From Polytrichum commune (lineage: Eukaryota > Streptophyta > Polytrichopsida > Polytrichales > Polytrichaceae): 64,000 nt of DNA. Positions 1,742 to 64,000 of this stretch are shown here, piece by piece. Each line of letters opens with the position of its first letter. The stretch's first letter is position 1. A program made the translations under genes and the position numbers. Location of the stretch: positions 29,359,666 to 29,423,665 of the forward strand of contig OX485807.1 of the NCBI GenBank assembly GCA_950295325.1. Direction: 5' to 3'. The notes below the pieces were generated by a model. The model was not told the DNA's origin. It worked only from the letters and a program-made list of their open reading frames with translations, and made no database searches.

Positions 1742-2935
1742 GGGCCACTTCAAACATGAGTCAAGGGCCATGACCACGTAATTGTAAAGGCCCTTGACTC
1801 TTGTTCAAAAGTTATACTAGATGTGTAACTACCATGGTATGATGGAATTTGCGTCAAACGCACCTCTTGGAGGTGGGCCTGACAAAAAATTCATCATACC
1901 ATGAAACATTATCCATAGTCTATCATGTAGAAATCCATGTAGACTTTTCACCCATGATAACTTCTTTTGACCCCCTAGGTCTTCACCTTCTAGTGTGAAG
2001 TGAACTTAGACAGTCTTGACCTTTTTGATCAACAAGAGATCTTAAAATGCACTTGTCACGGGACTTTAGTTCCATGTGTGAAGTGGCCTAAGGGCCTTGT
2101 GTGCTCAAGGTATCACATATAGGTACTTTTATGTTATGTGGGAGGTAGGCCGCCCTTACCATATTACCACGGGCCTTTAGGGCCACTTCACACACGAGCC
2201 AAGAGCCGTGACCATGAAATCACGAGAGCACAAAAGATATGTCCAACAACCATCCCAAGACACTTTCAAACTCATGTAGTGTGATCACGGGCCCACAAGT
2301 GTAGTGTGAAGTCATATGTGACTGGGCCTTGAACCAAATGTTATTTCAAAGAATTTCTATTGATTTGGGATCCTCAAACATGATAAAATATAATAAATGG
2401 ACGATTGTGAGATTTTGGAATGCCATGGTCTGCCCGTTTTGTGGTAAGCCTACCTCCAAGAGGTGGTTTTTGAAAATAGTCCAAGTGACCATGAAATATG
2501 GTTCAGTCAATGCCATGTAGGAATCCATGTAGACTTTACATCCATCTTGCATTCACATACTCCATTGGTCCCTCAAACATAGTGTGAAGCGGACTTGAAC
2601 CGGCTCCGCCTTTTTCCACCAATGAGAGTGCTTGAAGTGTGATCGTTAGAGGCTCTCAATCTCATGTGTGAAGTGATCCTAAGCCTACCTCCAAGAAGTG
2701 GTTTCACAATTACAATCCAAGTGACCATGAAACATGATCCATTGAATGCCATGTAGGAATCCATGTAGACTTTACATCCATCTTGCATTGACTTTGCTCC
2801 GTTGGTCCCTCAAGCGTAGTGTGAAACGAACTTGGACCGGCTCGGCCTTTTCGACCAATAAGAGATTTTAGAATGCAACAGTCGCGGGCCCTCAGTCTCG
2901 TGTGCGAAGTGGCCCTTGGTCCACCTACTTCTTCT
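1742..2935 (+). repeat. Cluster of M1-family MITEs
   Basis: Several imperfect copies lie head to tail. GGGCCACTTCACACACGAG-like ends occur near 1743 and 2190, and complementary ends (ATGTGTGAAGTGGCC-like) near 2070, 2660 and 2905. The word CCATGTAGGAATCCATGTAG occurs at 2513 and 2752, a spacing of 239 bp, with a weaker relative near 1925. The copies also share TAGTGTGAAGYGRACTTG. This is a local nest of one MITE family rather than a strict tandem array. No gene is seen; the overlapping ORFs are low-complexity shadows. Confidence 0.6.
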
Positions 2936-3289
2936 TCTACTACTACTACTACTGCATCTAATAAACCGTCGACGCCACTCTCATAGATTCTCCGGCTCGT
3001 TTTGTCCTCACTCGTGCACCTTGGTGATGAGTTGCCAAAAAGAGCCATTTGTTTTCTAGTATAATATGTTAAGGTACTTGTTGAGGCCCTAGAGACGTTG
3101 AGAGCTCAAAGACCAAGAGCTTGAAGAGAGGGAGCCTTTTCATTGGCGGAGAGACCCTTGACTCATGCTTGTTTTTTCTCGATTTTTATTATGTATAGAC
3201 TTGGTGGGTTGACTATGCTTGGATGGCATGATTCTCGTGTGCGGAGGACTATAGTCTATGACATGGAATGACAATTTGGTCGATGCCAA

Positions 3290-26379: not shown

Positions 26380-26550
26380 ACAAAATGCTTATCCAAGAAC
26401 ACGAGGGTTATCGAAACTTGTCAACATCTTTCATCCATGGAGGTGTGAAATAATTCTTAAAATATATTCATAAGTTGATTTGTTACGATTCATAACCAAT
26501 GCGAGTAGGTGGATGACTCGCCACTTCTTTGGCATGTCATCCACTCTCAT
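26380..26550 (+). repeat. Lead-in repeat shared with 45790-45950
   Basis: The words TTTCATCCATG, GATTCATAACCAAYKCGA and TAGGTGGATGAC are shared in order with 45790-45950, and both run into CTCGTTGGTKATCTA. This places a relative of the tandem array start at a second site. Confidence 0.5.
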
Positions 26551-27772
26551 CTCGTTGGTTATCTAGTCTATAAATGATGAATTGATGGGCATAACATGAT
26601 AAGTATGGATGATATGATGTCTTCATGGATGAAAATGTGTGACGAGGTCTGGTAATGTTTATGCTCTTGGATGAGCAATCAATTATATATAAATACCATA
26701 GATGTTGTGCCATGTCTTGTAGGTGATGTGACACTTATCTATTGGCTAATAAGGCCCTAGACATTTAAACCCGTCATCAACTCCCCAGTATTTAGAAACA
26801 TAGTAGTTACGTGCCACAAACTTCTCCTCTCGTTGGTTATCTAGTATTTAGATGATGAACTGATGGGCATAACATGATAAGTATGGATGATATGATGTCT
26901 TCATGGATGAAATATGTGACGAGGTCTGGTAATGTCTATGCTCTTGGACGAGCAACCAATTATGAATAAATACCATATGTGTTGTGCCATGTCTTGTAGG
27001 TTATGTGACACTTATCTATTGGATAATAAGGCCCTAGACATTTAAACCCATCATCGACTCCCCGGTATTTGAGAACTTAGAAGTTACATGCCACAAACTT
27101 CTCCTCTCGTTGGTTATCCAATCTATAAACAATGAGCTGATGGGCATAGTATGAGAGTTAGGGATGATATCACGTCTCCATGGATGAAAATGTGTGACGA
27201 GGTCTGGGTATGTTTATGCTTTTGGACGAGCAATCAATTATGAATAAATACCATAGATATTGTGCCATGTCTTGTAGGTGATGTGACACTTATCTATTGG
27301 ATAATAAGGCCCTAGACATTTAAACCCGTCATTGACTCCCTGGTATTTGAGAACTTAGAAGTTACATGCCACAAAGTTCTTCACTCATTGGTTACCTAGT
27401 CTATAAATGATGAGCTGATGGGCACAATATGAGAGTTAGGGATGATTTCACGTCTTCATGGATGAAAATGTGTGACGAGGTCTAGTAATGTTTATGCTCT
27501 TGGACGAGCAATCAATTATGAATAAACACCATAGATGTCGTGCCATGTCTTGTAGGTGATGTGACATTTATCTGTTGGATAATAAGGCCCTAGACATTTA
27601 GGCTCGTCATCAACTCCCCAGTACTTAAAAACGCAGTAGTTACATGCCACAAAATTCTCCTCTCGTTGGTTATCCAGTCTATAAATGATGAACTCATGGA
27701 CATAATATGAGAGGTAGGGATGATATCACATCTCCATGGATGAAAATGTGTGATGAGAATCTTACAAGTTCC
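26551..27772 (+). repeat. 278-bp tandem repeat, about 4.4 units
   Basis: Units start at 26551, 26829, 27106, 27384 and 27662, spacings of 278, 277, 278 and 278 bp. Each begins CTCGTTGGTTATCYAGT. They share GTGTGACGAGGTCTGGTAAT, TTGTGCCATGTCTTGTAGG and AATAAGGCCCTAGACATTTA. The last unit stops after about 110 bp, at GTGTGATGAGAATC. Units differ by scattered substitutions, so the array is not recent. No frame stays open across units. Confidence 0.9.
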
Positions 27773-43964: not shown

Positions 43965-44340
43965 TTGGAGCCTGACAACTCCAAGGGAATAATTGGGTTA
44001 GTCAACCCAAGAGAAAACAATTCACAAGGGCTAAACAACCCACGAAGGAATTTTGCATGGTTGTTAAACAAATCTCGATCGAAGATCTTTGCATTGGAGT
44101 TAGACACCTCCCTCTGGAAGATCTTTGTGTTGGAGTTAGACAACTTCCAATGGTTGGGTGTTATTCTTTGGAGTTAGACAAATTAAACAATTCCAACTAG
44201 AAAAATGGATGGATGAACCAAGTTGGAATTACATAGTTCTAACTAGTAGAATGGATGATTGGGTCAAGTTGGAATTAGACAATTGCAATTAGAAGAATGG
44301 ATGAATGCATCAACTTGGAATTAGACAATTCCAATTGGAG
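43965..44340 (+). repeat. 46-bp tandem repeat, degenerate to the left
   Basis: TTGGAATTA recurs at 44223, 44269 and 44315, exactly 46 bp apart, with AGAATGGATGAWTG between. Leftward the units (GGAGTTAGACAMCTCC, near 44094 and 44133) fade. One frame (43950-44177) stays open and repeats LELD-like words, but this follows from the repeat and no protein is claimed. Confidence 0.7.
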
Positions 44341-55893: not shown

Positions 55894-56060
55894 CTCATTT
55901 AGGTCGACTCAACCTAAATTGACAACACATTGTCCTCATTTAGGTCGATTCAACCTAAATTGACAACATATTGTCCTCATTTAGGTCGACTCAACCTAAA
56001 TTCACTAACATAATTGTCCTCATTAAGGTCGACTCAACCTAAATTGACAAAATATTGTCC
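55894..56060 (+). repeat. Four-unit tandem palindromic array upstream of a LINE
   Basis: The core AGGTCGAYTCAACCT starts at 55901, 55942, 55983 and 56026, spacings of 41, 41 and 43 bp. In the first three units it sits in a palindrome, TTTAGGT-(7 nt)-ACCTAAA; the fourth has TTAAGGT. The linkers are TTGACAACATATTGTCCTCA-like. The array ends directly before the first codon-like sequence of the RT element (about 56070), the position of a 5' UTR/promoter. Tandem promoter monomers are known from mouse L1, so the analogy is reasonable but unproven. Confidence 0.85.
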
Positions 56061-56069
56061 CGAACACAA

Positions 56070-59000
56070 ACAATGGATAGAAGATCTAGCTACCATAGGC
56101 AAAAAAACCAAAGCCAAAGCACATAAAATCACCACCAAACAAACCTCAATCAACTGCAAAACAACCATAACAAAAATAGACCCCTAATCAACATCAAGCC
56201 TAAAACTATACACAAAAAGATATTCCAACCAACAACCAAAAATTCCCTAGACTGTATCCAAACATCACAAGGTACTATACTCACTAAACCCACGAATATA
56301 GCCACTGAAATCTACCACACCCAACAAAAATCATTCCAAAGACAAACACCCATTTGTGATGACACCACAGACCATCCCAACACATACATGTGCACAATTC
56401 GTAAATACCCATGGCACACACACGACAGTCTCATACTTAATAAGAGAGGACCCCAAAACACACAAATTAGCACACAATTTACCAGAATAATATATAACAA
56501 ATGTATCAAAAGACTCAATAGAGGCAAAGCCCCCGGCCCAGACAATATCCCTAATGACATAATCAAAGCACTAACCCCACAATGTCAGAACCTCATATTT
56601 TTATTTTTCCAATAATGCTATAAACAAAGAGAAATTCCTAATTACTAGAAACACAGTAAAACCATCCTCTTACACGAGAAAGAAAACCCCATCCACCTCG
56701 CCAACTACAGACCAATAGCGTTAGCTAACACGATATACAAATTATATACTAGTACCATAACAACCCTCCTCATATGCTATGGAGAACAAAATAGACTACT
56801 ACACTTTAGCTAAGAAGGCTTCCGACCACAGCGCAACACCTCAAGGTAAATGCAAATGATAACAACAACCCTAGAGGACGCAAAATTAACCAATCAAGAC
56901 ATCTATTTCACATACATCGATTTAAAAAACGCCTTCGGCTCCATCGATCATGCAAAACTGTTGGCCCTCATGAAAGACCTTGGCTACCCATTAGACACAA
57001 TTGAAATTGTAGGAAATATATACAAAAACTCCACCACCGCCTTCACCGGCAACCACTTCGGAACCACACCATCCATTGAAATTAGCCGTGGCACCATACA
57101 AGGTGACACACTTAGCCCATACTTATTCATTATCTTCCTAGAACCACTCCTATGATGGCTAGAAAAAGGGGATACGGGGTACCACTTCAACACATCCCTC
57201 GCCACATGTACCACATCAGCATACACTGATGACCTAGCCATTCTCTATGACAAAATACAACACATCCAACCCCAAATAACCAAACTTCAAAAATTTGTAG
57301 AATGGGCACATATGGACCTTAACCTAACTAAATGCGCCATTACGAGATGCCCCAATAAGTCCAAATTCAAACCAAATACCTTTAAAGCATACATCGAATC
57401 CCAAAACATCACATACAAAGCAAAGAACTTCCCAACCCTCACACAAAATGAACCATATACATACATAGGCATTCAACTAATGCCATCACTTAAATGGCAC
57501 CTACATAAAGAAATCACACTAAACAAAGCCAAACAACAAAACAAACTACTAACCACCTCCCCAGCTAGCCTCAAACAAAAATTCAAAATATTAAATACAG
57601 TCATAAAATACCGGATAGCATACGCATACTATGCAGTCCCATTTTCCAAATCCGACATCAAAACCCTCGATAAGATAATAAGCAAACTAACAAAAGAAAT
57701 CAGCAACATACCCAAAAGCACGGCCAACATCCTCACACACCTCCCACACGAAAACTGCGGCATAAACGTAACCTCACTACTACCGGACTACATACATTGT
57801 ATAGGCCAACAATTAATACAAGTCCTCAATGACCCAGGCCAATTAGGTATCATATACCAAGGCTTAACCAAATACATAGCTGCCAAATATGGAGGATCCC
57901 TACACTTACCCAAACTCAAACAACATGCATGCTCCAGATCACCCATAGCACGAACACTCTACCTACTAGAAAGAGAATATGAAATACACATCGCCACCAC
58001 GAATAAGGCATTCCCCATTAAAAAAACCCCACTAGAACTAGCCTGGCAAACCAACCCCACATACGCCAACCTACCAGAAAACTCCAAAACACAATCACAA
58101 AAATACCTAAACAAACTCTACATGTACGGTATAACAACACTACCACAAATCCAAAATAACACCAACATGGCCATACTAACCCCTGACGAATTTCGTACAA
58201 CATACAAACATGTGCCCAAAATTATCAAGGCGGCACTAGAACAAGCTCAACTAATATCCCCCCCCCCCCCCCCCCCCACACACACACAACTACCCACGCC
58301 CCAAAGAGACCCCCAACTAGCTCAACAAACAACCTCCATCAACACACACAACCCACGCTCACCCTCACAACCCACGCTAGGACAAGCAATACACAAGATA
58401 ATAGAAGAAAGAACCACTACCATAAAAGATAAATGGGGCGTACAGGCCATCACAAGAAAATACTTATGCCAATGGAAGAATATGGAAAGCACCACACAAC
58501 AATGGCGTACAGAAGAGGACCTCCTACATCCGGATAACATTTTACTAAACCACAACCTACTAATCATAACATATTACCACAAAGCAATGGTAGAAAAAGA
58601 AACCACCAATACATACACCAACTTCCTTAACCACGTCCAAACAATAGATCAAAAATTCATACTCCCACCACTTAAAATTACTAACCTCAAAATGGCCACC
58701 CAAGAGTGCAACCCGGATAAAGACATCCTCACCAATAAACCAACAATACAAACACAAGACCTGAAATCCAATGTATTCGACCAACATGGCAACCACATCG
58801 CCACCCTCAATACCGAAATAATACAATGGCTATGGAATCAATTTTCGCACAACAACCTACAACACCTAACCAACTTCCTACAACCTCCACCATAAGATTT
58901 TGAAACCGAAGTCCTTTGGCTCCTCCAAAGATACATAACCATACTCCCAAAAAAGAAGCCAAAGAAGATTCAACCAAATAACCTACACCAAACGCTACAC

Positions 59001-60394
59001 CCCAAAATTACCAAACTATTAATAAACTCTTTTAATATCATACACTCATACTACTCATCCCCCCTCACATGCCCCACACAACTAACACATTATTACTCAC
59101 CACACACCCATGATATAATATTTGGCTCAATGGGGCACGTCAAATCCACAAAATGGACAGGAATAGACCTAGCATTCCCTATGAACCGCAACACGACACT
59201 AGAAGCCATCCACTGGGCTAGAATGGCTGCCAAGGAAGATACAAACACAATTACCATACTCATAACACACCACAAGGACTGGACATCACAACAACTACCA
59301 ATTACCACGAACACCGACACGTCATGGCAACAGTACCACCACGCACTATCTAGTATAACCCCACACCGGAATGGCCAAAGTATTACCAATACTACGAACC
59401 ATCCATCACGTCAATCATCTGCATCCATAACCAAACAAACGTACCTGAGACTATACAAACCCCAACTGAACTACAACAAGTCCTAAAACAAACAATAAAC
59501 TCACATATAGATACCCACCCCATCAAACCCACCCCCACACGCTATAATGTTAAATTCTCCACCACATGGAAAAATGCCCCTAAAACAACCATCACCCACA
59601 CTAAACACAACATCACAATACCACTTAAATTCCACCCACAACAATGTGTATACACGGACGGCTCATTCATCCCGCCAACAAAAAAACTCTGAAGGACAAA
59701 TAGAAGGCAATACCGCAGGTTCAGGTGTATACAACCCCAACAACAACACACAAATATCAGAAAGACTACCGGACTACCAAAATATACTCAAAGCCGAATT
59801 AAATGCAATCCTCATTGCCATCAAAAACATTGAAAATACCCAAATCAACACACACTTATTTACAGACAACCTTAATAGCATATACCTAATCAATAACCAT
59901 ATCCAACACCCAACCTCACAACATAACCACCCAGACAAGCTACTTATAACAACTATAGTACGACAAATATACTGGACCCCACACACAATCCACATACACA
60001 AAGTACGCGCACACTCAGGCATAACCGGAAATGAAATAACTAACACACTAGCAAATGAAGGCACAACCAAAGACAAACCAACCAAAACCCCACGCATCCA
60101 TACAACCCGCACCACCCCATACTGGCTAGCATGCTGCCCAACAACCACACATGATGGAGCAATTCGTAACCTACACACATTCGTAACGAAAGAACACAAA
60201 ACTAGAGAAACAACCTTAGCCAAACACAAATTCCCATACGTCGACAAATGGCTCTCAAATACCCGAATCAACCAGAAACTATCCAATCACTTTTGGCATA
60301 ATGAAAAAGTGCCAGACACTCAAATCACCCAAACACTAAAATTTAGATATGCCCAATACATGGGCAATCACATGAAAAATATATTTTGGCCCCT
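56070..60394 (+). pseudogene. Non-LTR retrotransposon with RT and RNase H, G-poor
   Basis: One frame runs from about 56181 to about 59370. RT motifs are GKAPGPDNIPNDI (about 56522-56560), ANYRPIALANTIYK (56700-56740), the GFRP block (56817), motif A IDLKNAFGSID (56920-56950), motif B RGTIQGDTLSP (57088-57120) and motif C YTDD (57220-57231, usually YADD). An uninterrupted 527-codon stretch covers thumb and connector (57312-58895). In-frame stops lie at 56613, 56646, 56811, 56847, 57153 and 58893. Small frameshifts at about 56178, 59370 and 59685 (an A7 run) flank the RNase H domain. That domain keeps Asp (59657), Glu (59797), Asp (59865) and His (60011), but the last acidic residue is Asn (about 60042). 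RNase H places it near the I/R1 type of LINEs. Endonuclease was not recognised. It was probably once active and is now dead. Confidence 0.85.
58258..58277 (+). repeat. 20-base C run inside the RT element
   Basis: Twenty consecutive C followed by (AC)5. It keeps the reading frame and encodes prolines in the connector region. Such a run is slippage-prone and its length is sensitive to sequencing error. Confidence 0.8.
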
Positions 60395-60720
60395 CACTGT
60401 GAGGCCAAACCACTCACCCTTAAGCGTCCTAGTCCGGGTGAGGGAGTGGGTATCACATTCATGTTCACATAGTTCCCCCCTACCAAGTTCATGAAACTCC
60501 AATTCAATTCCCATTAATTCTTGCACACCAATTCATTTCATAATAAGAATACAAGCATTGAAAAATGCTCTTCTCCTTCTTCCTAAGCTAACTACAACCC
60601 AACACTTAAATCCCTAATCACCTAGCCTACCATCTAAGTGCCATTAGTGCACTTGGGCATTCCCATGCCGACCGGTTCGCCAATGGTCCATACCCGTTCG
60701 ATATCCAGGCTCCAAACCAA
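60395..60720. other. Junction beyond the RT element
   Basis: CCACTCACCC and GGGTGAGGGAGTGG (60409-60449) form an imperfect hairpin immediately after the element's coding similarity stops. It might mark the edge of another insertion. There is no gene. Confidence 0.4.
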
Positions 60721-61275
60721 CGAGCTACTTAGTCTTCTCCTTCCCCAAACCAACAGCTAATAGCCTTCTGTCCCAGGCCGGGCAGCTAATTAGCTTGCTC
60801 CTTACCCAAACCAGCAGCTAATAGCCTTCTGTCCCCAAGCCAGGCAGCTAATTAGCTTCTCCTTCCTAAATCAGCAGCTGATAGCCTTTAGTCCCAAGCC
60901 GGGCAGCTAATAGCCTTCTCCTCTCCAACCAACAGCTAATAGTTCACAGTCCCAACAGTCGAGCAGCTAATTAACTTGCTCCTTACAAACCAGCAACTAA
61001 TAGTTCACAGTCCCAAGCCAGGCAGCTAATTAGCTTGCTCCTTACCCAAACCAGCAGCTAATAGCCTTCTCCTTCCCCAAACCAACAGCTAATAATTTAC
61101 AGTCTCAACAGTCGAGTAGCTAATAGCCTTCTCCTTCCAAACCAACAGCTAATAGCCTTCTCCTTCCCCAAACCAGCAGCTAATAGCCTTCTCCTCTCCA
61201 AACCAACAACTAATAGTTCAAAGTCCCAATAACCGAACAACTAATTAGCTTGCTCCTTATAAACCAGTAGCTAAT
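60721..61275 (+). repeat. Minisatellite of CAGCTAATAGCC units
   Basis: About 17 variants of a 30-36 bp unit such as CAGCTAATAGCCTTCTCCTT-CCCAAAC occur. Two sub-types often alternate: one with TAGCCTTCTCC and one with AGTCCCAAGCCGGGCAGCTAATTAG. AGCT is present in nearly every unit. No frame is kept, so this is satellite-like rather than a repeat protein. Confidence 0.85.
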
Positions 61276-61349
61276 AAGTTGTCCGGACTGCCCGGCTTAG
61301 CTTACTTTCACAGTCCCAAGCCGGGCAGCGAGGGAAGCTATCTTATAAG

Positions 61350-61400
61350 CGATGAGCAATGAGCAGTGAGCGGTGAGCAGTAAGACATGAGCAGTGAGCG
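61350..61400 (+). repeat. Short GAGCAGT tandem
   Basis: GAGCAATGAGCAGTGAGCGG and neighbouring words repeat a 7-base motif about seven times. Confidence 0.6.
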
Positions 61401-61404
61401 GTAA

Positions 61405-61645
61405 TATATGAATAATGAATTCAAAAATAGTAAAGGTGCACAGGTTAGGGTACATGAACTAAATATAGTACTACATGAATTGAAGATTTTCAAATGTAAA
61501 GAGTTCAAATGAAGCAAGAAGGAATCGTATTACCGTGGACCATTGGAAATACTTCCAGTCCATTGCTAATTTTCATTATAACAATCCAAACCAAAACATG
61601 TCATTTTTTGACATTCAAATATATGGTACTTAATAGACCATTTGC
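61405..61645. other. AT-rich stretch downstream of the MULE gene
   Basis: It probably contains the 3' end of the minus-strand MULE transcript. No terminal inverted repeat was recognised. Confidence 0.35.
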
Positions 61646-62951
61646 AATACTACTCACACTCTACAATACCAGCAAGTTTAAGTAGTCGCATGACCTCGTT
61701 ATAGGTATATGTAGGTGCATGAATGAACTTGTCACTCTCGTAATCCACCTTGCACAAAAATCTAAACACATAATAAAAATGTTTACAATACACCCATTTT
61801 CCTTTCTTTCGCAATGCATGAGAGGACATTTTCGTGAAATCCGGGCATGTGCAATGCGGGATGTCGCCAATTGTGACATGGTATGTGATATCTTGCTTGG
61901 AGACAATGTTGATTATCACTCCAAAGCCCGGATATGGAATGGCAGTGACCCCAACCACATAGTAACCCTCCATGAGTCCGGCACTCTCCCATTTGTTTTT
62001 GTGATCCGCTAGCGGTGTTGTTGGATTACGACGCACTGTCTTCCCAAACCTGAATGTAGGGTGGGCATCCGGGTTTGGTGGCATAGAAAAATGCGAGCGA
62101 GGGATGGGGAGAGTTGCAATTGTTGAAAGCCTACGACGAGGGGACAATGCCTCCCTCTGCTGTAGTTGAAATCCAGCATCTTCAAGTGCCAAAACCTCCT
62201 CTCTCGATAGATTGGTACCTATCTTTACCGGCCACGTGTTGGGTACTATAAGCCAGTCCAACACATATTTCTTTTTACTGCCACTCACACAACGCTTGAT
62301 GTCGTCAGGGCAAAACCAAAATTAATACTCCACATTGTTGGGAGATCGAAATTCCTTCCTGAGCCCTTTGTATGTTGGGGCAGGTGTGCCATGTTTCCCA
62401 GTCCTGATTTTAGCATTGCACATAGGCCCTGTAATGGCCTGCAGTGCCCAACATCGTTTGGCTGAGTTGGGTGGTAATCTTGCAATGTGCCAGTTGGAAG
62501 CAAGACAATCAGTCTCTAACACGGATGTAGTATGAGCCACACCATGAATTGCAGAACTCAACGATTATTCTATGCGTTGACGAGTTGCTCGGGTGTTGGG
62601 ACGTGGAATGGAATAGTTCACTTTGTCGGGTCGATGAGAGTCATAATCAGCACCCGGTGGTAGGTTGAGTTTGCGTTTGGTGGAACCAAAGAGTTCTGAC
62701 CCTTCCAATGCACAATCTCTAGTGTTGACATCTTCTGCCCCTGGGTAAGACTTCATGGCATCAGCCAATATTTTTGGATCTCCACACCTGGTAGCTGCTT
62801 TGAGTTTCAAGGAGGCCGAATTAGGACCTCTACCATCAGACCCCCCTTTCAACCATGTCCGGTAATTTGCAATTTGCATGAAGGCACCGATCATGTCGTC
62901 CACTGTAGCTTCATATAAACAAGTCATCTTCTTGCCGGACTGTTGGAGCCA

Positions 62952-63063
62952 TTTGTTGTGTACAGTCTCTGCAAGGTTGCATGTTGGCATTTCCGCACGC
63001 TCTTCTATTGTCATATCCTATGAACAACACACAAATACAATGATAAGACAAACATAAGATAGA
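62952..63063 (-). repeat. Duplicated MULE intron/exon junction, proximal copy
   Basis: TTTGTTGTGTACAGTCTCTG to AACATAAGATA is repeated at 63331-63443 with about 90% identity by eye. The copies lie 379 bp apart, in direct orientation. This copy continues into the open exon, so it is the original. Confidence 0.85.
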
Positions 63064-63075
63064 TTATATATCTAG

Positions 63076-63331
63076 GTTTGGGTCGTTCGACCCAAAATGG
63101 CTCCCACGTTTGGGTCGAACGACCCAAACTGCCTACAAGGTTTGGATCGAACGACCGAAACTATTTGCGTAGTTTGGGTCATTCGACCCAAAATGGCTGC
63201 CACGTTTGGATCCAACGACCCAAACTGTTTGCGCAGTTTGGGTCGTTCGACCCAAAATGACTGCCACGTTTGGGTCGAACGACCCAAACTGCATTCAAGG
63301 TTTGGGTCGAACGATCCAAATTGTTTGTTGT
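63076..63331. repeat. Eight-unit, 32-bp palindromic array
   Basis: Units start at 63076, 63108, 63140, 63172, 63204, 63236, 63268 and 63300, all exactly 32 bp apart. Each has G plus a 20-bp palindrome, consensus TTTGGGTCGTTCGACCCAAA (GAAC or TTC centres), and an 11-bp spacer. Spacers fall in three types in the order A B C A C A B C: A is ATGGCTSCCAC, B is CTGCMTWCAAG, C is CTRTTTGCGYA. Several palindromes carry one change on one side. Frames run open across it on both strands because 96 bp is a multiple of three, but the readings (FGSNDPN, FGSFDPN) merely mirror the repeat. Confidence 0.95.
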
Positions 63332-63443
63332 TTGTTGTATACAATCTCTGCAAGGTTGCATGTTGGCATTCACACACGCTCTTCTATTGTCATATCCTAT
63401 GAACAACACAGAAAGACAAAGATAAGAAAAACATAAGATATAT
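63331..63443 (-). repeat. Duplicated MULE intron/exon junction, distal copy
   Basis: This is the second copy of 62952-63063. It includes an intact acceptor, TTCATAG|GATATG, at 63397/63396, but its exon part has a TGA stop (GAGCGTGTGTGA) and runs into the palindromic array. Confidence 0.85.
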
Positions 63444-64000
63444 TACATTGAGTAATAAAGTTTGATATGTACTTACAAGTAGCATATGGCCACCCCATTG
63501 TCTGTAATGAAAGTGCCAAAATCCCAACCACTCTGAAAGGCCAAGGATGCCTTCTTCGAAGGCAGCTTCAGATGACAACCACCAAGAACGAATCACATGG
63601 TACTTGGTCTAAGCGTCGTCCATTGTTTTCGCGTCTTTGTAATATTTGCATATTTGTTTGTGATGAAATTGCAAGGATGGTTTGATATACTTTTGGGTCA
63701 CCTTATCCAAGCTTGCGGACCAATGGAAAAGACATGTACGCTCACGTGAAACCATGGGTAGACTTGGATCACCATCCCCGTAAATCGCCCTCACCGCATT
63801 CCAATTAGCTTGAGTACTATCAGCCATAAACCCTTTGAAGTTTACGTTTGGTACACCATTTTCTGCCATGACAGCATTCAAATTTTCCCAAAAGAGAATT
63901 TGTGCTGCACCATTTTCAGATTGCATGTCACAACACGCAATAGTCAACACTTTACAGTATCGACTATCGTACACATGGCAAGCCATGGTCATCCAGTCCT

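Follow-up and report, generated by a model that had tools for sequence, protein, structure and literature searches.

Subterminal repeats of plant DNA transposons are bound by TNPA in Spm/En and by the transposase in Ac. A closer parallel to the locus considered here is provided by the VANDAL elements of Arabidopsis and their anti-silencing VANC proteins. The motifs bound by VANC21 have built up tandemly within VANDAL21, where they occupy introns, intergenic stretches and terminal regions, and other targets are recognised by related VANCs (PMC5735166, PMC10398659). DNA-methyltransferase-type proteins form a second strand of comparison: C5 DNMTs have been reported on retrotransposons in dinoflagellates and charophytes (PMC5890265), and bacterial-type N4C methylation has been reported as an epigenetic mark in bdelloid rotifers (PMC8885841).

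The locus lies near the end of a 64,000-nucleotide stretch of Polytrichum commune DNA, referred to as the window, where an array of palindromes (array A) is found in the transposase gene of a DNA transposon that also encodes an accessory protein (gene 2). Repeated short motifs in a DNA transposon, with an element-encoded protein as the candidate for binding them, recall Spm/En and Ac; there the motifs cluster at both ends, whereas the arrays here are internal and apparently intronic. The resemblance to VANC and VANDAL extends further, with an accessory protein encoded by the element, a short motif tandemly repeated in non-coding parts (here putative introns and 5' regions), a motif that differs between related elements, and repeats that expand and contract. 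The differences are that long palindromes take the place of the 9-bp YAGTATTAY described there, that one motif is common to two transposon types, that the present system is known from sequence alone, and that the accessory protein of the window's type appears related to N6/N4-methyltransferases, with no Pfam match to DUF1985 or DUF287 in the exons scanned of gene 2 and of its counterpart in the second transposon type. Since the scan gave neither of the domains by which that group is defined, the element is regarded as VANC/VANDAL-like in anatomy and not as a member. The first-pass annotation, which knew of no plant element with such an array, overlooked a close functional analogue (PMC5735166). 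With the retrotransposon DNMTs the element shares the encoding of a DNA-methyltransferase-type protein by a eukaryotic transposon, but those are C5 cytosine enzymes, while here the domain is of the N6/N4 class, lacks DPPY and occurs on DNA transposons with palindrome arrays (PMC5890265). With the rotifer system it shares N4/N6-class DNA modification machinery in a eukaryote, differing in the missing DPPY and in the location of the gene on a transposon (PMC8885841). No such palindrome arrays appeared among the listed titles and abstract openings of the literature searched, which included few subscription papers, and neither full palindrome word occurred among those listed when the search was by motif letters.

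Array A and the transposon that carries it

Array A comprises eight near-perfect 20-bp palindromes, TTTGGGTCGNNCGACCCAAA, spanning 63077-63320 with a period of 32 bp (starts at 63077, 63109, 63141, 63173, 63205, 63237, 63269 and 63301, each step being 32 bp). It had been annotated as eight exact 32-bp units; the count and the strictly uniform spacing stand, but the units are not identical. A 2-bp centre that is free to vary separates two 9-bp arms, both of which are perfect in four of the eight units (1, 2, 6 and 7), while the others carry 1, 1, 2 and 2 changes. The spacer, previously given as 11 bp, is 12 bp once the palindrome is counted as 20 bp, and its types do follow the order A B C A C A B C as claimed. 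When GGTCGWWCGACC was sought with up to two mismatches, 10 matches were found in the window, 8 of them within array A, against a chance mean of 1.94 and with none of 100 shuffles reaching 10. The CpG o/e ratio is 1.25 in array A versus 0.48 in window positions 1-61000. Two copies of an intron/exon border, 91.3% identical over 115 bp and absent from the first-pass annotation, flank the array. The features of the element within the window are as follows.

61330-64000, no strand assigned: left part (2.67 kb) of the 10.9-kb DNA transposon, from inverted termini, 10-bp TSD and relatives L002-L006
61330-61398, no strand assigned: left terminal inverted repeat, from the inverted match, first 7 bases added by eye
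61650-62321, minus strand: putative transposase C-terminal exon with SWIM-like zinc-finger region, from an open frame and sub-cut-off Pfam matches
62565-63017, minus strand: putative transposase exon on the 3' side of the intron with array A, from an open frame
62952-63066, no strand assigned: direct repeat copy 1, intron/exon border (91.3% over 115 bp)
63018-63476, minus strand: putative intron holding array A, GTAAGT ... CATAG, from splice signals read in the sequence
63076-63331, no strand assigned: array A, 8 x TTTGGGTCGNNCGACCCAAA, period 32, from sequence reading and pattern search
63331-63445, no strand assigned: direct repeat copy 2, within the intron (91.3% over 115 bp)
63477-64000, minus strand: putative transposase exon, presumed catalytic region (by eye), continuing outside the window, from open frame comparison

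The host of array A is a 10.9-kb DNA transposon (C5:29420995-29431921) that begins at window position 61330 and extends beyond the window end. Its limits were drawn from the sequence past the window and from alignment to L002-L006, five relatives located on C1, whose aligned blocks are mostly 92-96% identical to it, and 85-88% around array B. A 10-bp TSD, GCCGGGCAGC, is present at both ends; on its own it is no proof of insertion, because the insertion sits in a tandem repeat that contains the TSD word. The terminal inverted match covers 62 bp at 85% (61337-61398 versus C5:29431853-29431914), and copies E3 and E4 share the right terminus. Two divergent genes are carried, the transposase on the minus strand and gene 2 on the plus strand, the latter preceded by the 13 units of array B. 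In L001-L006 the places of arrays A and B are 4.2-4.8 kb apart. A comparison of other copies, as the first-pass annotation had proposed, has revealed palindromes at both places in L002-L006, with a single palindrome at the array A place in L002. The window copy itself is decayed: its transposase contains an in-frame stop, where the relative L005 is open over 714 aa, and its gene-2 exon contains three stops.

The array had been placed inside a MULE transposase gene. Its position in a transposase gene holds, most probably within an intron, since a minus-strand donor (...CTT/GTAAGT, at ~63476) and acceptor (CATAG/GATATG, at ~63018) enclose it; the start of the exon at 62565-63017 is not independent splice evidence, because the acceptor TAG itself reads as a stop. 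The MULE label is plausible on account of the terminal inverted repeats, a TSD within the 8-11 bp by which such elements are recognised, and a weak SWIM match in the C-terminal exon (Pfam E 0.2, the best match being DUF6208 at E 0.0027, both below cut-off), with no match to the Pfam MULE transposase domain in the 714-aa frame at E up to 5.

Genome-wide occurrence and diversity of the palindromes

The genome-wide search advocated in the first-pass annotation yielded 9,731 exact sites for TTTGGGTCGNNCGACCCAAA in the 408-Mb genome, with none for the reversed control and ~0.003 expected by chance, according to our own arithmetic from ~40% GC. Sites are listed on seven large contigs; a further contig, C8, bears psaA and psaB and is presumably the plastid, its psaB being closest to the entries 8htu, 6l35 and 7ksq, photosystem I of Physcomitrium, as would suit a moss. 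The possibility raised there of an ordinary satellite is not borne out, as the palindrome is kept and the spacer left free, in place of a head-to-tail unit with no conserved sub-part. Among 12 pieces upstream of further gene-2 copies, 11 hold 2-22 palindromes, mostly 32 bp apart and also at 34, 36 and 49 bp; the twelfth, L027 (81% identical), has no TTTGGGTCGNNCGACCCAAA-type palindrome and holds another one. On C1, where 37 clusters were built from the first 100 exact sites listed, 22 have an accessory-gene match no more than 8 kb away, counting the best 150 of 1,223 and best 150 of 952 candidates, versus 0.9% for a random position. Six of the 15 remaining clusters were examined (L034, L035, L036, L037, L038 and L039): L034 and L039 encode the accessory gene of the second transposon type (the L007 type, described below), L036 has a gene 88% identical to that of the DUF7869 element, L038 a family-1 transposase fragment, and L037 both family-1 palindromes. 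When sites with all centres were listed, three of seven clusters were near a listed gene and a fourth (L044) encodes an L007-type gene. Since accessory gene and transposase travel together, this linkage cannot choose between them as the partner of the palindromes. A separate observation concerns L035, where GGGTCG palindromes at 78-80 bp (1940-3053) lie near a frame resembling a hAT C-terminus by eye, with no Pfam match for that frame.

The same 20-bp palindrome is carried by a second type of transposon, unrelated to that of the window, which contains a DUF7869 gene (Pfam E 7.3e-42, obtained with the neighbouring frame L030:1-657) and an accessory gene; in each of the two types, a transposase and an accessory gene are arranged divergently. 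The DUF7869 gene, an array with a 78-bp period and the start of the accessory gene are common to L053+L030+L007 and the copy L052+L032 at 98.7-99.7% identity. The L007 palindromes are found in the 5' region, in intron 1 (from 8 bases after the donor) and in intron 2 of the accessory gene, both being putative GT..AG introns, and two more (6306, 6375) overlap the end of an open frame and may lie in coding sequence. A search with the L007-type gene gave 19 matches, including the query itself, that are 100% identical over 198 aa, and an element of this type has therefore been active recently. Between subfamilies, exon 2 of this gene shows dS of 1.5-3.6 with omega of 0.03-0.07 in five of six pairs, the sixth being a close pair (dS 0.06, omega 0.30); these estimates leave out the out-of-frame exon-1 rows of L034, and the remaining exon-1 pairs are saturated but for one. 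Over the same divergence, the intron-1 palindromes of L007, L034, L039 and L044 are identical but for one base in L044, and their spacers are unlike.

Between families, the 20 bp are constant and the spacers and periods vary (32 to ~80 bp, plus a 158-bp unit). The palindrome is used at 35-38, 39-50, 57, 64, 78-80 and 158 bp outside array A, and the earlier proposal that a 32-bp step, or three helical turns, sets all sites on the same face of the DNA has been dropped because of this variation among arrays. The arrays are free of any 64-bp gap that would betray a dropped unit. In 191 family-1 units, arm bases hold 1.37-1.95 bits, spacers 0.27-1.46 and the centre ~0.3, figures that are inflated because similarity to the palindrome served to identify the units. 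At the CpG bases of these units, C to T or G to A changes are seen in 6, 11, 12 and 17 of 191, which would fit methylation of old copies; the most changed arm base is position 6 (22 G to A), outside any CpG. The palindromes are real, conserved under selection, distributed genome-wide and linked to element-encoded proteins, and a function as protein-binding sites may be proposed for them.

Relatives of gene 2 are accompanied by different palindromes according to subfamily (CCTGTGCGTTAACGCACAGG; GGTTTCGGNNCCGAAACC; TGTCTCGGNNCCGAGACA). The second palindrome, CCTGTGCGTTAACGCACAGG, has 490 genome sites (control 0) and occurs in family 1 (L005) and in the relatives L017 and L027 at 74-81%; 10 of 11 clusters on C1, drawn from 50 of the 490 sites, lie within 1.6 kb of gene 2. 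The third, GGKTTCGGNNCCGAAMCC, has 552 sites (control 1) and, within the reach of the listing, adjoins all three C1 genes at least 92% identical to L012, none of 18 at 69-90% and none of four below; five of eight clusters are more than 8 kb from any listed gene. As the inner word of this palindrome, GTTTCGG, recurs in L046 (85%) as well, it is on the outer bases that the contrast with the 18 genes depends. The fourth, TGTCTCGGNNCCGAGACA, has 1,310 sites (control 0) and adjoins three of eight covered genes at 69-90%, and two of five clusters are again farther than 8 kb from any listed gene; L047 (82%) and L048 (76%) carry it as TGTCTCGG..CCGAGACA, with the change present in both half-sites. A further repeated palindrome, GAGGCCTCGGATCCGAGGCCTC, is found in L050 (46%).

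A blind search for palindromes with arms of at least 7 seen at least 3 times was positive in 31 of 38 element loci, 14 of which had themselves come from palindrome hits or flanks (L001-L007, L030, L032, L034-L036, L039 and L044). For the loci picked by gene match alone, 17 of 24 contain a repeated palindrome versus 0 of 13 window control segments. None was found in L014, L015, L016, L027, L029, L049 and L051, which are in part short pieces, and four of 12 further flanking or downstream pieces contain one. A scheme of one protein for one site would be too simple, because family 1 and the L012 type each carry two palindromes.

Further arrays have also been observed. In the L012-type element, a second short palindrome, GTTAGAATCTAAC, belongs to the 85-bp tandem repeats that occupy positions 1665-2935 and 5599-7295 of L012. 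At G000 (C1:468609-471928), TGTCTCGGTACCGAGACA occurs 13 times with a fixed TA centre at a spacing of ~138 bp or multiples of it, with no listed accessory gene within 8 kb.

Accessory proteins and a possible reader of the palindromes

After splicing, the C-terminal part of gene 2 gives a match to Pfam PF01555 (N6_N4_Mtase) at E 3.4e-5, with 24.4 bits against a curated cut-off of 26.7, and the spliced domain matches the DNA methyltransferase PHROG_67 at E 8.7e-7; against PDB, DpnA alone was returned (E 0.5), and two more gene-2 exons gave no Pfam match. Profile comparison thus suggests a relationship of this domain to the N6/N4 DNA methyltransferases. The (D/N/S)PPY motif is missing, and at the corresponding place, judged by eye, FLQFPDG is found in family 1, LADIPEG in the L012 type and DFRNIPG in the L007 type. 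With DPPY replaced, catalysis is doubtful, and gene 2 of the window's element type probably encodes a DNA reader and not a DNA-methylating enzyme. A methyltransferase identity was also considered for the L007-type C-terminus and set aside, motif resemblance having been found and no profile match. Gene 2 yields omega of 0.29-0.40 in four measurable pairs, decayed copies among them, and where measurable it is less constrained than the L007-type gene.

Binding sites for a dimeric protein, one of the readings offered for array A in the first-pass annotation, remain the best reading of the array. It can be proposed that the palindromes serve as an address in non-coding parts of the element, namely introns and the space between the two divergent genes, to which a dimeric, sequence-specific protein would bind. 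The reader would most likely be the accessory protein encoded beside the transposase, which, bound in arrays, may keep the chromatin of its own element open or counter host methylation, as VANC does on VANDAL. Protein and palindrome would then drift as a pair to new specificities, each subfamily marking mainly itself. This explanation, in which recognition is subfamily-specific and directed against silencing, is put forward tentatively, at a little under an even chance. The GGGTCG word common to the two element types may reflect trans-recognition or array capture. With hhalign, the two accessory proteins that share it show no detectable homology (probability 0.4%), and a common reader is therefore left unexplained unless one protein acts on both.

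A broader formulation seems possible, at somewhat lower confidence. According to it, two unrelated superfamilies of plant DNA transposons would use a palindrome code read by non-catalytic accessory proteins of bacterial methyltransferase descent, which diversifies by matched half-site changes, the word GGGTCGNNCGACCC, with its 9,731 full-length addresses, being shared or hijacked across superfamilies. If accessory proteins do read the palindromes, self-recognition of the VANC kind would have originated at least twice among land plants, on the basis of proteins unrelated to one another; the protein/palindrome subfamilies of one genome would constitute a natural series of protein-DNA specificity pairs, and the theft of address tags between unrelated transposons would become directly testable.

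Alternative readings and other features of the window

The absence of detectable homology between the accessory proteins, together with the occurrence of the same 20 bp in one element type with a DUF7869 gene and in one without, is what would be expected if a host DNA-binding protein read the GGGTCG palindrome and unrelated transposons had converged on it or exchanged it, either borrowing a host activator or being recognised by a host silencer. A single host factor would not lead one to expect that the other palindromes go with particular subfamilies within one element lineage, and this reading is considered unlikely, if still worth some weight. Rather less probable is a role as transposase-binding repeats, at which the transposase would dock during transposition or autoregulate its own gene. 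Such a role would suit L001-L006, with one array in the transposase gene (in L002 a single palindrome) and one upstream; it fits poorly with arrays that are internal and not at both ends, with inverted termini that are devoid of palindromes in the window's element, with a palindrome common to two element types that have different transposase-like genes, and with the L007 arrays in accessory-gene introns.

The pattern of changes within the units bears on whether structure rather than sequence is maintained. Hairpins in single strands had been suggested for array A, and RNA hairpins or DNA cruciforms could act in splicing or in small-RNA production: the inverted repeats lie within putative introns, and the symmetric subfamily change from GTTTCGG to GTCTCGG would also preserve a hairpin. 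Within family 1, however, one-sided changes number 124 and two-sided ones 6 (4 of them complementary), against an expectation of 3.7 for the two-sided; for 133 units from other loci the corresponding counts are 51 and 7 (1 complementary), with 1.4 two-sided expected. Changes are thus mostly one-sided, which argues for selection on sequence and not on pairing; the palindrome sequence persists in unrelated contexts, and a 2-nt centre is too short to form an RNA loop. Maintenance of a hairpin is accordingly thought quite improbable. A partition or clamp-loading system of the ParB/parS kind, captured from bacteria, is also very doubtful. The N-terminal parts of both accessory proteins contain a motif (DGNHR or DGQH) that we take to recall ParB/Srx-type domains, and palindromic clusters recall parS, but a ParB identity extends no further than this DGxH motif, with no support from Pfam, PHROG, PDB or the profile comparison, in which the two accessory proteins reach the hhalign value given above. 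Least credible is a functionless tandem satellite carried along by transposons. Copy numbers of 2 to 22 among 11 copies, typical of slippage and unequal exchange, would suit it, as would the C to T and G to A changes found within units, but the 20 bp persist despite near saturation at synonymous sites, spacers and periods differ between families, and the other tandem arrays of the window do not repeat a perfect-armed palindrome.

Among the tandem arrays of the window with a period of at least 15, array A alone repeats a palindrome with perfect arms of at least 7; a single palindrome of this kind is found in the array at 44181-44334, and the palindromes at 55894-56060 are imperfect. The tandem array at 26545-27757 (period 278 bp, 4.4 copies) has no palindrome with arms of at least 7. 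The array at 55894-56060 has a 41-bp period and a near-palindrome, TTTAGGTYGANTCRACCTAAA, with 1,276 exact pattern sites genome-wide (control 0), of which those listed are mostly of one asymmetric form, with TG or CA replacing a CpG. At 56000-61300, about 5 kb of the window are strongly asymmetric between strands, with GC skew down to -0.52 and AT skew up to 0.42. This stretch ends in a degenerate tandem repeat (60712-61280), at the edge of which the transposon has inserted.
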